Part shown: piece by piece, positions 14,774 to 21,336 of the stretch
Position numbering within the stretch: position 1 is the stretch's first letter
Layout of the letters: every line of letters begins with the position of its first letter
Source of the DNA: Gemmatimonadota bacterium
Lineage (GTDB): Bacteria > JAAXHH01
Length of the DNA stretch: 64,000 bases
Reading direction: 5' to 3'
Assembly: GCA_009837395.1 (NCBI GenBank)
Contig: VXTP01000043.1
Span: 248,001-312,000 of the forward strand
Translations under genes and position numbers: made by a program
The notes under the pieces: model-generated
Seen by the model: the letters and a program-made list of their open reading frames with translations, nothing else
Databases searched by the model: none
Told to the model about the DNA's origin: nothing

Positions 14774-16243
14774 GTGAGAAACAGAATGATCCAGATCAAA
14801 GAAATTGACCTCCGCATCCAGAACATGCGCACGCGCATGCCTTTCAAATTCGGCATATCGACCATGACGGCCGTGCCGCACCTGGTGCTCGGCATGGTGC
14901 TCGAGGTAGACGGCCGGACAGGCAGGGGATATGCGGCCGACCATCTTCCTCCGAAATGGTTCACGAAGAACCCCGATACGTCCCTTGAAGATGAAGTAGA
15001 GGACATGATCGCCGTCATCCGGCACGCCAGCGATGCCGCGCTGACCATCGGCCCTGCGCCGGAACCATTTACCCTCTGGCGGGAACTGTACGAGGCCCAG
15101 AAGCCCTGGGGAACCGAGCGCGGTTTTGCGCCCCTCCTGTGGGGCCTGGGCACCAGCCTGGTGGAAAGAGCCATGATAGAGGCTTTCTGCCGCCTGCAGG
15201 GCACGAATTTCGGCCAGGCCGTGCGTTCAAACGCCTTCGGCCTCCGACTGGACGCATTCAACCCGAATCTGCGGGACCTGGAACCAGCCGATGTGTTGCC
15301 CGACGCCCCGATCACCGTCACGAATGTGCGCCATACCGTGGGGTTGGGAGATCCTCTGACCCGTCCGGAAATACCTCCGGAGGAGTTGTGTAATGATGGG
15401 CTGCCCCAGTCGCTGGACGAGGTCATCGACACCTACGGCATATCCTACTTCAAGATCAAGCTGTTCGGGGATAAGGAACGGGATTTCGACCGACTGAAAC
15501 AGGCGGCGGAGATCATCGGAGGGCGCCTGGACCACTACGCCTTTACCCTGGACGGCAATGAGAATTACGGCGACATGGAGTCCTTCCGGTCATTCTGGGA
15601 GGCATTGCGGGCAGATCGCGACCTGACCAAGTTTCTGCGGCGTCTGATCTGTATCGAGCAGCCCCTACATCGCAACATCGCACTGGACGAAGCCGTCAGG
15701 CGGCACTTTCAGGCCTGGGCGGATCGTCCATCATTCATCATCGACGAATCCGATGGCGATATAGGCGACGTGGAAAGGGCCGTCGATATCGGTTACGCGG
15801 GAACAAGCTACAAGAACTGCAAGGGCGTGTTTAAAGGTCTGTCCAACGCGGCCAATCTGAAGTACCTGTCGAATCAGCACCCGGAACGTGCGTACGTGTT
15901 GACGAGCGAAGATCTCTCCAACATCGCACCGATTGCGTTGATGCAGGATCTCGCGGTACTGGCTACTTTAGGGGTTGACCATACCGAGCGTAACAGCCAT
16001 CATTATTTCAAAGGGATCACGGTCTGGCCGGACGAAGTACAGGTACAGGTGGTGAAATGCCACCCGGATCTGTTTGACTTGCATGCGGACGGGTTTCCAT
16101 GCATGCGTATCCGCCAGGGCCGGATCAACATGGAGAGCGTCACGACGAGTCCCTTCGGGGTCGGGTTTGAATTCGAAGACCAGCTTAGTGCACAACTCAC
16201 CCCGCTGGATGACTGGCGTTATGCTTCCCTGGATGATGGGTGA
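14774..16243 (+). CDS. Enolase-superfamily enzyme (mandelate racemase / muconate lactonizing type)
   Basis: 489 aa with the enolase-superfamily barrel. The first-strand base motif is K227-x-K229 (FKIKLFG), and metal ligands are D260 (DGNENYG), E295 (IEQPL) and D324 (IDESDG), with K347 (YKNCKG) as the opposite-face base. That residue set fits a muconate-lactonizing or o-succinylbenzoate-synthase-like acid-sugar or dipeptide enzyme, but the substrate is unknown. It is longer than the usual 370-400 aa because of insertions in the capping domain. GTG 14774 has an AAAGGA site; ATG 14786 is the alternative. Its 3' side faces the dif-like locus. Confidence 0.82.
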   Translation: MRNRMIQIKEIDLRIQNMRTRMPFKFGISTMTAVPHLVLGMVLEVDGRTGRGYAADHLPPKWFTKNPDTSLEDEVEDMIAVIRHASDAALTIGPAPEPFTLWRELYEAQKPWGTERGFAPLLWGLGTSLVERAMIEAFCRLQGTNFGQAVRSNAFGLRLDAFNPNLRDLEPADVLPDAPITVTNVRHTVGLGDPLTRPEIPPEELCNDGLPQSLDEVIDTYGISYFKIKLFGDKERDFDRLKQAAEIIGGRLDHYAFTLDGNENYGDMESFRSFWEALRADRDLTKFLRRLICIEQPLHRNIALDEAVRRHFQAWADRPSFIIDESDGDIGDVERAVDIGYAGTSYKNCKGVFKGLSNAANLKYLSNQHPERAYVLTSEDLSNIAPIALMQDLAVLATLGVDHTERNSHHYFKGITVWPDEVQVQVVKCHPDLFDLHADGFPCMRIRQGRINMESVTTSPFGVGFEFEDQLSAQLTPLDDWRYASLDDG

Positions 16244-16329
16244 TTGCTTCAGATACGGTTTCGGATTCGATCGGTGAACGTCAAGTACCTTGGTCGAGTG
16301 TCTCAGTGTCCGTGTAACTATCTGGTCAG

Positions 16330-16440
16330 CAATACAATTCGTAATTGTTTTGTACAAAACCGACAGATCAATGAACAACATAACCTATTTTTGTACATGC
16401 CCCGAAGCACATTGTACAGATAACATATCTATTGTACAAT
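16330..16440. repeat. Phased TTGTACA motif array, left arm (array A)
   Basis: Six motif positions with centres at 16333.5, 16353.5, 16374.5, 16394.5, 16415.5 and 16435.5, i.e. steps of 20, 21, 20, 21 and 20 bp. Four carry exact TTGTACA (starting 16350, 16391, 16412, 16432). Two are weaker (ATACAAT and TGAACAA). The copy at 16347-16360 is a perfect 14-bp palindrome, GTTTTGTACAAAAC, and that at 16431-16440 a perfect 10-bp one. A step of two helical turns would place all sites on one face of the DNA, as for a cooperatively bound protein. Confidence 0.85.
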
Positions 16441-16620
16441 GGTCAAAAACAGCCATGAAACGTCAAAATGAGCCCGCGAACAGAGACCAGAACCAGATTC
16501 CGATCGATTTCGGTCGGCTTGAGATGCTGGATAAGGCACGTTTCGGGCCGAAAATCGGGATTTTGAGGGTAGTTTCGAGCCACCCCCTGACCCTCCGGGA
16601 ACCGGATTAGAGACGAAATA

Positions 16621-16648
16621 GATTTACATAATATCTATTATGCGAAGT
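16621..16648 (-). other. dif: Xer recombination site, dif-like
   Basis: Read on the - strand the 28 bases divide into ACTTCGCATAA, TAGATA and TTATGTAAATC, the 11-6-11 layout of XerC arm, centre and XerD arm. From memory, the right arm matches the B. subtilis site at 9 of 11 and the E. coli site at 8 of 11; the left arm matches each at 8 of 11. The inner CATAATA / TATTATG is perfectly symmetrical (16627-16642). It lies in a non-coding AT-rich spacer, as expected for the chromosome-dimer resolution site at the replication terminus. Confidence 0.75.
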
Positions 16649-16722
16649 AGGGTTTTGGAGGGGTAAACGAGGAATTTTGGGGTCTGGGGCTATAAATCGG
16701 ATAAGAAAAGCATTAAAGCACC

Positions 16723-16911
16723 TATGTACAAATATAAATCGAGTTGTACAATCACCATGTGCCAGATGTACAAATAAATAACAATTAGTACAAACGGTGA
16801 TTCAGGATATACAAAGATATATAGCGTTGTACGACAGTGTTTTATACAAACCAGTGAATAATTGTACATAATGTGGGCAAAATTGTACAATAAGTAGATA
16901 AATTGTACATT
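16723..16911. repeat. Phased TTGTACA motif array, right arm (array B)
   Basis: Ten motif positions with centres at 16727.5, 16747.5, 16769.5, 16789.5, 16810.5, 16830.5, 16845.5, 16865.5, 16886.5 and 16906.5. Steps are 20, 22, 20, 21, 20, 15, 20, 21 and 20 bp. Exact TTGTACA starts at 16744, 16862, 16883 and 16903; TGTACA also at 16725 and 16767; the others keep at least TAC. It begins about 75 bases to the right of the dif-like site and ends about 50 bases before the oxidoreductase gene. Confidence 0.85.
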
Positions 16912-16958
16912 CGTCGAATTCGGATACTCTTGGAATCCAGGTATAATCCTACCGGTTA

Positions 16959-17990
16959 ATGTCAGAAACCCGCGTTTCATCACAACAAGTTACTTCATTG
17001 CGTCCACGTCGATTTGTCAGCTCAGAATTCAGAAAAATAGGACTGGAGGAGTATGATCTTCCTCCGGTACCGAATGATGGCGTACTCGTCCAAACCGAGT
17101 ATACAGCTGTTAGCGTGGGCACGGAGATATTCAACTTTATAAATGGTTGCGAGCCAGGTGGAACGCCGAGGTTTCCGCGATACACAGGTTATTGTAATAC
17201 AGGCGTAGTTTTGGAGGTTGGAAAGGATGTAAAGGAAATTGTTCCGGGCGACCGTGTTACTGGACAGGGGAATCATGCAAGTCATTCGATAATGTCTGGC
17301 TTAATCACCAAGGTGCCGGCGAATGTATCATCCAGGGCCGCGGCTTTCATGGTTATGGGGGCGACTTCGCTACATGGCCACCGCGTTGCCCGTCCGGAAC
17401 TGGGCGAGGCCGTGGTGGTGACCGGCATGGGAATCGTGGGTCAGCTGGCCGCCACTTTTGCGAAACTGAGCGGTGCCGTACCTGTTATCGGCGTGGATCT
17501 GGATGACTTTCGCCTTATAAAAGCCCGTGAACGCGGGGTCGACGTATGTATCAATCCGGATAATGAAACCGATGTGGCCGAAGCGGTGCGCCGGCACTGC
17601 GCGGCAGACGGTGCGGACCTGGTCATCGAAGCAACCGGCATTCCCGGTGTATATCCGATGGCGCTGACCCTGCCGCGCCTCGGCGGACGTCTGCTCGCGC
17701 TCGGTTCCCCGCGCGGATCGGTGGAGGTGAGTTTCTTACACGAGGTCCATCTGCGCGAGGTCACGATTCTAGGCGCCCACCAACCTAAAACGCCCGACGA
17801 GGCCGACCTGTACTATCCCTGGGGCAAGTGCAGGGACCGCGACCTGGTCCTGCGGCTCATGGGTGAAGGAAAACTGCCGATCGAGGACCTGATCACTCAC
17901 GAAGCCGACCCCTCTGACTGCCAGTCTGTCTACGATATGCTTGCAGATGATCCCAGGGAGGTGCTGGGGGTGGTGTTCAGGTGGGTGTGA
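16959..17990 (+). CDS. MDR-family (zinc-type alcohol dehydrogenase-like) oxidoreductase
   Basis: 343 aa. It has a GroES-like N-terminal domain (about 20-140) and a Rossmann domain with GMGIVGQLAATFAKLSGA (about 155-172) and ATGIPGVYPMAL. The structural four-cysteine zinc lobe is absent and the usual catalytic CGSD motif is replaced by VSVGTEIF, so it resembles the BchC/threonine-dehydrogenase-like MDR proteins lacking canonical zinc sites. NAD(P)-dependent sugar or polyol oxidation is a guess. The first third is AT-richer than the rest and there is no clear ribosome-binding site. Confidence 0.8.
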   Translation: MSETRVSSQQVTSLRPRRFVSSEFRKIGLEEYDLPPVPNDGVLVQTEYTAVSVGTEIFNFINGCEPGGTPRFPRYTGYCNTGVVLEVGKDVKEIVPGDRVTGQGNHASHSIMSGLITKVPANVSSRAAAFMVMGATSLHGHRVARPELGEAVVVTGMGIVGQLAATFAKLSGAVPVIGVDLDDFRLIKARERGVDVCINPDNETDVAEAVRRHCAADGADLVIEATGIPGVYPMALTLPRLGGRLLALGSPRGSVEVSFLHEVHLREVTILGAHQPKTPDEADLYYPWGKCRDRDLVLRLMGEGKLPIEDLITHEADPSDCQSVYDMLADDPREVLGVVFRWV

Positions 17991-19490: not shown

Positions 19491-19784
19491 GTGTCCTGCC
19501 ACACCTATTTCGGATTCAAGCTGGAAGACGCTGTCCGGGGCCTGAAACGGGCGTTGCGGGACGAGAACATCCCCGTCGTGTCCGTCCGCGAGGTCGATGA
19601 TCGGGTCGTATTCGCGATCGATGTCGCCTCCGAAACCGGGGAAATCATCCTGGCCTACCATACCACGAAGTCCCATCCCCTGGCCAGGCTGGGTGAAATC
19701 CCCGCGATAGAGGTCACGGTCGACGACCACCTGCCCGATGTCAAACCCGTGCTGACCATGGCCTTTTTGAGAGGCGGAGGTTGA
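19491..19784 (+). CDS. Hypothetical protein, 97 aa
   Basis: I do not recognise this family. It begins at GTG 19491, 5 bases after the sulfur carrier, and ends 4 bases before the OmpA-like gene, so all three look co-transcribed. It is a soluble alpha/beta-type sequence with alternating strands (VVSVREVDDRVVFAIDV, EIILAYHTTKSH) and one cysteine (C3). Start choice is uncertain. Confidence 0.65.
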   Translation: MSCHTYFGFKLEDAVRGLKRALRDENIPVVSVREVDDRVVFAIDVASETGEIILAYHTTKSHPLARLGEIPAIEVTVDDHLPDVKPVLTMAFLRGGG

Positions 19785-19788
19785 CCTG

Positions 19789-21336
19789 ATGCGAGCAGGG
19801 ATCCTGGTTTCCCTTTGCTTTTGTATTTCCTTATTCCTGACGACTCCCCTTCCCATATCGGCGCAAGGCTCCGGGAGCGGTAGTGCAGCCAGTGCGGCCA
19901 GTGCGGCCGGTCGGATCACCGCGGCTACTTCGGCCCTGAATCAGCTTTCCGATCTGGACGCCGGTTTCCTGATCCCTGATACCTACAACAAGGTCCAGGA
20001 GGCCTACGATCGATATACCCGGGATATACGAGAAGGCAAATCAACCCGGGATATCGATCGGTCCTATACGGAGTTCGACGCCGCCCTGGTCCTGGCGCGG
20101 GAACGGCTGGATCGCGTAAACGAGATCCTGATGGTGCCGCTGGAGAAACGGTCGGCGGCCCAGCGGGCGAACGCCCCCGCGATGGTTCCGGATGCCTTCG
20201 AGGAGGCCGAAAGCCGCCTCGAACGGGCCATTTCCAGGCTGGAAGACGACCGGGTCTCCGACGCCTTCGCCCAGGGACAGGAAGCGGCCGCACTCTATGA
20301 TGACGCGAGGTCGTCGGTGATCGAGATGTCGCTCATCGGATCGGCGCAGATCGGCCTGGCCGAAGCCGAGAACCAGGATTGGGACCGGTTGGCCCCGGCG
20401 TCCTTCGCGCAGGCCCGCCGGTTGGTGGACGAAGTAACCGGCGCGCTGGACCGCGGAGAACCCCTGTCCGCCGCGCTCCGAAGCAAGGCCCAGACCGCCA
20501 ATTACGCGGTACGGCGCGCCATTGAGATTGCGGCGCAAGTCGATGGGCTTCGCAGCGATCCCGGGAACTGGGAGCGCATGTTGCTGGCACGGGAGGATCT
20601 CGTCCGACAGGCCGCCGACATGGCGGGGGTCGCCGCCGATTTTCTGGCCGATGACCCGCAGGCGATTATGACGGCAAGCCTGCACACACTCGCCGCGCGG
20701 CAGGATTCCCTTGACCTCCTGCTCCAGCGGGCAGAGGAGGACGCCGCGGCCCTCAGGGCCGAGGTCGATTCCCTGCACCAGGCCATCGAAGAGCAGCAGA
20801 TTCGTTTGTCGTCCATGGTGGAGAGTTACCAACAGGACCTTCAGCAGAGAAAAGAGGAGATTGACCGGGAACGTCGTGAACTCAGGGAGTACCTGTACGA
20901 AAAGACCCAGCTGGATGCCGCCGCACAGGCCCAGGAACGTTTTTCGGACAGCGAAGCGATCGTGGTGCGAGATGACGACCGACTTACCCTGCGGCTCATC
21001 GGGCTGTCTTTCCGGGCGGGAAGAACGGAAATACCTGGAGGCGCGCGCGGGCTGCTCGAAAAACTCGGGGAGTTCCTCGTGTTGTATCCTCAGACCCGCG
21101 TCGCCGTGGAGGGCCACACGGACGCCACCGGCGCGGAGGATAAAAACGTCACCCTCTCGAAGTCCCGCGCCGACGCGGTCATGCAGTTTCTGGCGGACCA
21201 ATCCGGTGTCGAGACCGAACGCATGACGTCCTCCGGCCTGGGCAGCGCCCAGCCCATTGACAGCAACAATACGCGCAGGGGCCGGGAACGGAACCGGCGA
21301 ATCGACGTGATCCTGACTTTCACCAGAGATCTGTAA
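19789..21336 (+). CDS. OmpA-family outer-membrane/periplasmic protein with a helical stalk
   Basis: 515 aa. A signal peptide (residues 1-25, ending ISAQG) is followed by a Gly/Ser/Ala-rich linker, a long alpha-helical, coiled-coil-rich region (about 45-385, DUF4398-like in its first part) and a C-terminal OmpA peptidoglycan-binding domain (about 395-510, VEGHTDATGAEDKNVTLSKSRADAV and RNRRIDV). It should tether the envelope to peptidoglycan. A long hairpin follows the stop. Confidence 0.88.
   Translation: MRAGILVSLCFCISLFLTTPLPISAQGSGSGSAASAASAAGRITAATSALNQLSDLDAGFLIPDTYNKVQEAYDRYTRDIREGKSTRDIDRSYTEFDAALVLARERLDRVNEILMVPLEKRSAAQRANAPAMVPDAFEEAESRLERAISRLEDDRVSDAFAQGQEAAALYDDARSSVIEMSLIGSAQIGLAEAENQDWDRLAPASFAQARRLVDEVTGALDRGEPLSAALRSKAQTANYAVRRAIEIAAQVDGLRSDPGNWERMLLAREDLVRQAADMAGVAADFLADDPQAIMTASLHTLAARQDSLDLLLQRAEEDAAALRAEVDSLHQAIEEQQIRLSSMVESYQQDLQQRKEEIDRERRELREYLYEKTQLDAAAQAQERFSDSEAIVVRDDDRLTLRLIGLSFRAGRTEIPGGARGLLEKLGEFLVLYPQTRVAVEGHTDATGAEDKNVTLSKSRADAVMQFLADQSGVETERMTSSGLGSAQPIDSNNTRRGRERNRRIDVILTFTRDL

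Follow-up and report, generated by a model that had tools for sequence, protein, structure and literature searches.

The stretch of DNA analysed here (64,000 nucleotides, referred to as the window in the following) carries, between two protein-coding genes, a dif site for the Xer recombinases that is framed by two blocks of short palindromic repeats (Table 1). The gene to the left of the array encodes a protein which we take to resemble the enzymes of the enolase superfamily, and the same neighbour is present in the eight relatives of the genus in which this flank was compared. The original prediction had placed a dif-like Xer site between the two blocks, and a canonical dif was indeed found there. 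On the + strand its XerD-type arm, ATTTACATAA, lies to the left and its XerC-type arm, TTATGCGAAGT, to the right, if the naming is presumed to follow that of the E. coli dif.

Table 1. Coordinates of the genes, the dif site, the flanking conserved block and the dyad units of the array (positions of the window; unit scores are matches to the 12 half-site positions)
Feature	Position	Strand	Description
Gene left of array	14774..16243	+	489 aa; no Pfam or NCBIfam match
Unit L1, left (XerD-side) block	16332..16355		ATACAA-N12-TTGTAC, 11/12
Unit L2, left block	16373..16396		GAACAA-N12-TTGTAC, 11/12
Unit L3, left block	16414..16437		GTACAG-N12-TTGTAC, 11/12
Conserved block on XerD side of dif	16545..16621	+	10-bp windows 0.86-0.99 conserved
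dif site	16622..16648	+	sole match with at most 3 mismatches in the window
Unit R1, right (XerC-side) block	16726..16749		12/12
Unit R2, right block	16768..16791		GTACAA-N12-TAGTAC, 11/12
Unit R3, right block	16809..16832		ATACAA-N12-TTGTAC, 11/12
Unit R4, right block	16844..16867		ATACAA-N12-TTGTAC, 11/12; 35 bp from R3, not 41-42
Unit R5, right block	16885..16908		12/12
Gene right of array	16959..17990	+	zinc-type alcohol dehydrogenase (ADH_zinc_N)

On the + strand, TTGTACA occurs at 16350, 16391, 16412, 16432, 16744, 16862, 16883 and 16903, and TGTACA is found additionally at 16725 and 16767. The sixteen motifs originally listed, including these eight exact and two shorter copies, were re-found in the places claimed, and the steps between them are exact (20, 21, 20, 21 and 20 bp on the left; 20, 22, 20, 21, 20, 15, 20, 21 and 20 bp on the right). 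On both strands of the whole window the motif has 18 matches against 1.64 expected, and a count of at least 18 was reached in none of 100 shuffles. The sixteen motifs form eight pairs, and the repeating unit is a 24-bp dyad of the form GTACAA-N12-TTGTAC, a reading which was adopted because the inward-facing halves of each pair are the better conserved ones. Three units precede dif on its XerD side and five follow it on its XerC side; together they span 577 bp, with the entire array contained within about 310 bp of dif and the blocks starting about 91 and about 198 bp from its centre. In two genomes (G003 and G010) the order of the steps is mirrored across dif, with 20, 21, 20, 22 and 20 bp on one side and 20, 22, 20, 21 and 20 bp on the other, and the window deviates from this by one base.

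Within 600 bp on either side of dif, a spacer of 12 bp gives eight units matching at least 9 of the 12 half-site positions, compared with a mean of 0.68 and a maximum of 4 in 200 shuffles, and ten other spacers between 8 and 18 bp give 0-4 units in the same stretch. The spacing, for which the possibility had been raised that it might prove no better than that of shuffled AT-rich controls, stands out against them, and an origin as chance AT-rich repeats is ruled out by the shuffle counts. The proposal that the motifs share a single helical face is borne out inside each block, where the steps are 20-22 bp, but relative to dif the units R1 to R3 are out of phase by a quarter to a third of a turn if 10.5 bp per turn are assumed.

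The comparison was carried out with 16 genomes of the phylum, which are the same 16 for the order; all of them are drafts, and nine reach a completeness of 90% or more with no more than 5% contamination. The window's own genome (G000) comprises 3.8 Mb in 47 contigs. Homologues of the left gene were found at seven loci, one of them in a distant Spirochaeta (42% identity) and the other six, at 83-90% identity, in genomes assembled from metagenomes, whose deposited names are Candidatus Latescibacterota or Gemmatimonadetes bacterium. Judging from the isolate names and from the literature on sponge Latescibacterota, the host group apparently consists of sponge symbionts. A dif with at most 3 mismatches, consisting of two inverted arms and a 6-bp centre, is present as a single copy in 12 of the 16 genomes, namely nine of the twelve of the genus together with G012, G014 and G015, and no such site was found in the remaining four (G005, G007, G009 and G013). 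In G007 one unit stands at the extreme start of a contig on which the left neighbour gene is also found, and dif is cut off there; G005 and G009, which are fragmented into 520 and 400 contigs, gave neither a dif nor a unit with at most one mismatch.

All 27 left units of the nine dif-bearing genus genomes match 11 or 12 of the 12 positions. The right units are readable in full in seven genomes (35 units), as two of the five in G011, and not at all in G004, where the contig ends. Of the 64 readable units 62 match at least 10 positions, both failures lying in the right block of G008. The search was confined to within 3 bp of the nominal place of each unit, which bounds the shifts that could be seen, and a free scan recovered the same units. 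Between species the half-sites are identical at 0.93 of their positions and the spacers at 0.53 (227 comparisons), so that the suggested comparison of related genomes, in which the spacing should be kept as the sequence between the sites drifts, came out in favour of the array, with near-fixed distances throughout the genus.

The conservation values for the block directly preceding dif (Table 1) come from eight genus genomes, G011 having been left out for a one-base deletion. The larger stretch between the left block and dif, 16445-16621, is likewise unusually conserved in the genus and contains, immediately past the left block, a reading frame of 51 amino acids. Its interpretation as a gene was rejected on the basis of nine genomes, given an early stop in G008, the one-base deletion in G011 and a changed stop in G001. 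An RNA element was also considered and rejected, as a comparison of 15800-17400 with Rfam gave nothing up to E = 1.

The units are confined to the surroundings of dif to a large extent. The exact pair pattern occurs five times in the window's own genome, every time at the dif locus, and with at most one mismatch of the unit there are nine places, eight of them at dif, compared with one for the reversed control. The ninth place lies within long open frames, which led to the rejection of an autoregulated binder for this genome, as it is the lone off-dif place there. In the other ten genus genomes that were searched, 0-3 off-dif places each were found against 1-7 for the reversed control, and 400 kb of G006 sampled away from dif contained no unit matching at least 11 positions and three matching at least 10. 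The genome scan called for by the original prediction therefore yielded a single locus in the own genome, at dif, and the existence of many similar arrays scattered through that genome is excluded by this clustering of the units.

On their own, TTGTACAA octamers show nothing unusual across the genome (37 places versus 25 for the reversed control), and the half-sites joined without a spacer, i.e. the 16-bp palindrome TTGTACAATTGTACAA, are found at five other places of the own genome and at three in G010. These lie near the middle of the loci L104, L105, L106, L107 and L108 (G000) and L109, L110 and L111 (G010). In both genomes the palindrome is located 55 bp upstream of a gene for a short-chain dehydrogenase (SDR), and by reading of the loci it is also upstream of two further orthologous gene pairs; six of the eight places fall within some reading frame 100 codons or longer, and the copy in L108 lies behind the nearest genes. 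A close variant (L117:1528-1542; near 1545 in L141) was noticed upstream of a PIN-domain (VapC-like) gene in G000 and G010, and in both a divergent MarR-family gene is found near that gene. Because TTGTACAATTGTACAA precedes genes, a transcription factor that recognizes the half-site probably exists, and this factor could be the binder of the array, a relative of it or an unrelated protein.

Outside the genus, G012, which belongs to another genus of the same family, has three units at dif, each matching 11 of the 12 positions; 200 shuffles gave a mean of 0.46 and a maximum of 3, equalling the observed count, and the case for an array in this genome is a moderate one. G015, from another family, has seven units of 9-12 of 12 around dif against a shuffle mean of 0.67 and a maximum of 3, with other spacers giving 0-5 units (five for spacer 8), and here the larger group, four of the seven units, is on the XerD side. 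In G014, from a third family (83% complete), dif is present, FtsK was not detected and there is no array around dif. The array is thus not universal among relatives with dif, and of the absence in close relatives that had been named as one of three refutations of the idea, the part that came true concerns G014 alone, a member of another family. A displaced array in G014 was considered and rejected, as just one perfect unit was found, at the end of a contig and 14.6 kb away from dif; a 28-bp palindrome near its dif lies directly past the stop of a leuS-like gene and is likely a terminator. The pair pattern also matched in G019, G022 and G035, which share the domain only; these matches were attributed to chance, the two short dif-arm patterns scanned being absent from the 3-kb loci.

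The genes beside dif differ among these genomes. By translation they are fumarase-like and TIM-barrel-like in G012 and acyl-CoA-dehydrogenase-like and MoaD-like in G015, and since the neighbours differ, the array goes with dif and not with the flanking enzyme genes. The suspected linkage to dif, at a single genomic place, is borne out, and the array is kept beside dif despite different neighbouring genes. The dif locus of G014 is orthologous, with homologues of pnp, an M16 peptidase and dut on one side and an OmpA-type gene with a 97-aa neighbour on the other. The 97-aa protein, which has no Pfam or NCBIfam match, and the OmpA-domain protein (19491-21336 in the window) are found near dif in G014 and G015 too, at 31-37% identity, and their genes form a conserved terminus gene pair.

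The dif site is placed at the replication terminus by the GC skew of G006, which is weak and changes sign at dif. In 20 samples of 20 kb from the 2.87-Mb contig of G006, the mean skew is +0.017 in the nine samples before dif and -0.008 in the eleven after it (two-sided Mann-Whitney p = 0.0098). In one strain, G002, foreign DNA begins directly after the left block and a perfect dif. The right block is on a different contig there and is preceded by a hybrid site that differs from dif at 5 positions, with the DNA outside both junctions matching the window. This is the arrangement that would be expected as the product of Xer-dependent integration at dif. Among the proteins of the insert is one with a match to phage single-strand annealing proteins (E = 6.5e-6), and the insert (L061:1-2110 and L060:4858-12001) looks phage-like as a whole, with this annealing protein and an HNH-type protein. 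It has to be noted that the two blocks need not adjoin in this strain, the right one being separated by the inserted DNA.

The recombinases that would act on this dif look standard. Four tyrosine recombinases are encoded by the own genome, all on contigs other than that of dif; XerD scores 365.6 bits against the NCBIfam cut-off of 329.6, and the XerC candidate, which adjoins a topA-like gene, reaches 330.0 bits, just below its cut-off of 335.15. No arm-binding domain was found in either of the two. An arm-binding recombinase acting on the array was considered and rejected, the sole Arm-DNA-bind_3 integrase being on another contig, by a phage-portal-like gene; the locus concerned (L102, in G000:C34, about 50 kb), with its arm-binding-domain integrase and portal-like gene, is a probable prophage.

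The usual partner of the Xer recombinases, the cell-division translocase FtsK, is a different matter. FtsK_gamma has no match in the own genome and was found in 8 of 14 control genomes, and the FtsK_SpoIIIE motor was detected in one of the 16 genomes (G015), compared with 10 of the 14 controls, eight of them over the cut-off; the controls without a match thus number four for the motor and six for FtsK_gamma. The motor end of the G015 protein (L144:1-2232) matches the anti-phage protein SspH in PADLOC with E = 1e-57, and the protein reaches 146.8 of 1566 bits against FtsK. Because this lone motor protein is SspH-like, a cell-division FtsK is considered undetected in all 16 genomes, and the notion of an FtsK/Xer accessory site in its usual sense is not supported, with neither a cell-division-type motor nor a gamma domain detected. 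Consistent with that, four of the XerD residues corresponding to the FtsK-gamma contacts of the E. coli protein are changed (Glu119 to G, Gln123 to E, Ile127 to H and Glu184 to Q) and Arg148 is kept, with the contacts taken from part of Table 1 of PMC5052618 and the numbering set from the alignment. These changes lend weak support, because such residues diverge also in species that keep FtsK (PMC5052618). In 400 kb of G006, GGGNAGGG, the KOPS of E. coli, is weakly polar, with 54 copies pointing towards dif and 34 away. Among the other octamers, GGGCCTGC (43 towards, 14 away) and AGGTGATC (30 and 7) were picked as the highest counted, and the best octamer with at least 25 copies has z = 3.8. 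Since some non-KOPS octamers are polar towards dif, there may be a translocase that uses other polar signals.

Several explanations can be weighed for the presence of such an array at dif. The original prediction had offered as an alternative that the array is an operator cluster for the dehydrogenase gene on its right, the proximity of dif being accidental. The 235 bp upstream of that gene do contain five units, and spacerless TTGTACAATTGTACAA precedes genes elsewhere, e.g. the SDR gene mentioned above. Against this, a distance of over 500 bp separates the left block from the gene, and in G002 the two are on different contigs; G008 retains the gene though its right block is degenerate; and in G012 and G015 the units surround dif, with the dehydrogenase not found in the stretches examined there (14 kb and a 3.7-kb contig, respectively, as also in 19 kb around the dif of G014). 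Because related arrays adjoin dif beside different genes, an operator for the dehydrogenase is insufficient as an explanation, and this alternative is disfavoured to the point of being highly improbable. That the blocks are the leftover attachment arms of an ancient element once integrated at dif is scarcely credible: dif does serve as an integration target in G002, but both blocks keep a near-fixed distance across the genus with constrained half-sites and are present in another family, and the own genome encodes its four tyrosine recombinases on other contigs.

The terminus position of the array would also suit a replication fork trap, in which the two blocks stop the forks at dif in the manner of RTP/Ter in Bacillus, where the sites are likewise terminus-associated and the Ter B site has a GTAC core. 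Ter sites are polar and are not arrayed at 41-42 bp, however, whereas the units described here are near-symmetric dyads without clear polarity, and the RTP family has no match over the cut-off in the 16 genomes (two weak ones were seen, with E of 0.167 and 0.866), which makes a fork trap improbable. A better case, if still a rather unlikely one, can be made for a terminus organizer or centromere-like site that keeps the sister termini joined or tethers them to the division site, with no direct action on XerCD. Centromere-binding proteins typically bind helically spaced arrays, the array is at one locus, dif, where the GC skew changes, and the step order on the two sides of dif is mirrored in G003 and G010. 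There is also a likeness to MatP/matS in that both are terminus-associated protein-binding sites, putative ones in the case of the array; matS is a 13-bp motif different from that of the array. In addition, matS sites are scattered over the terminus (PMC11724359), whereas the units cluster at dif only, within about 310 bp of it, and no partition gene was recognized by eye among the open reading frames at 8-26 kb of the window.

The reading that we favour, and to which we assign a nearly even chance, is that of an accessory nucleoprotein array that controls FtsK-independent recombination by XerCD as at the plasmid sites cer and psi, here at a chromosomal site. A dimeric or tetrameric DNA-binding protein would fill each unit, with its half-sites about two helical turns apart, presumably as one protein dimer per half-site palindrome and two per unit. 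The protein would cluster along both blocks into one nucleoprotein structure with dif, which would wrap or pair the sister dif sites and thereby license XerCD. It would thus be this structure, and not translocation by FtsK and contact with FtsK-gamma, that joins the copies of dif and limits strand exchange to dimers, in parallel to the role of ArgR/PepA or ArcA/PepA at plasmid cer and psi. More tentatively, it is possible that the lineage has lost FtsK and that its XerCD resolves the dimers of a multi-megabase chromosome under the dif-framing array and a new accessory protein.

Several observations count against the accessory role, namely the absence of the array in G014, the split blocks of G002, the loss of two of the five right units in G008, the larger group being on the XerD side in G015, the count in G012 equalling the shuffle maximum, and the distances from the centre of dif at which the blocks start. 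The mechanism is regarded as inferred because the binder is putative and because in G014 dif occurs with neither a detected FtsK nor an array. A role in FtsK-independent control of Xer recombination nevertheless appears to be the best-supported inference, with a putative binder.

The array resembles cer of ColE1 and psi of pSC101 in having a dif-like core with candidate protein-binding sequences beside the XerC arm, which are recognized here from sequence. In the genus, it is the XerC side that carries the larger block, with five units, as it does the accessory sequences of cer and psi; three further units are on the XerD side. The plasmid sites have XerC-side sequences of about 200 bp on small replicons, whereas here a chromosomal dif, in a genome of 3.8 Mb, has a dyad block on either side, and the motif of the array differs from the plasmid accessory sequences and, we presume, does not resemble the ARG box. 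At cer and psi the accessory sequences are on the XerC side, and ArgR or ArcA together with PepA replace FtsK, according to PMC11724359 and PMC5357621. According to a recent enterobacterial survey, replicons of Enterobacteriaceae larger than 250 kb use FtsK control, and Xer control of the FtsK type is mandatory for large replicons (PMC11724359). Another parallel, from organisms that lack FtsK, is the archaeal XerA/dif system of the Thermococcales, for which PMC2958812 describes a dif located in the termination region with conserved flanks, whose inverted repeats were suggested as partner-binding sites. That system, as described in the same paper, has a single recombinase and conserved flanks of about 23 bp, whereas XerC and XerD and eight units over 577 bp are found here. 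Among the matches listed from the open-licence PMC literature (subscription papers and preprints lie outside it), none describes a bacterial chromosomal dif with an array around it, nor is a loss of FtsK in this bacterial group reported in any of them.

If the role in FtsK-independent Xer control is true, the array would represent another way of coupling the resolution of chromosome dimers to topology or to the cell cycle, and the control of Xer systems without FtsK, including that of archaeal XerA, would become directly testable with a short DNA fragment.
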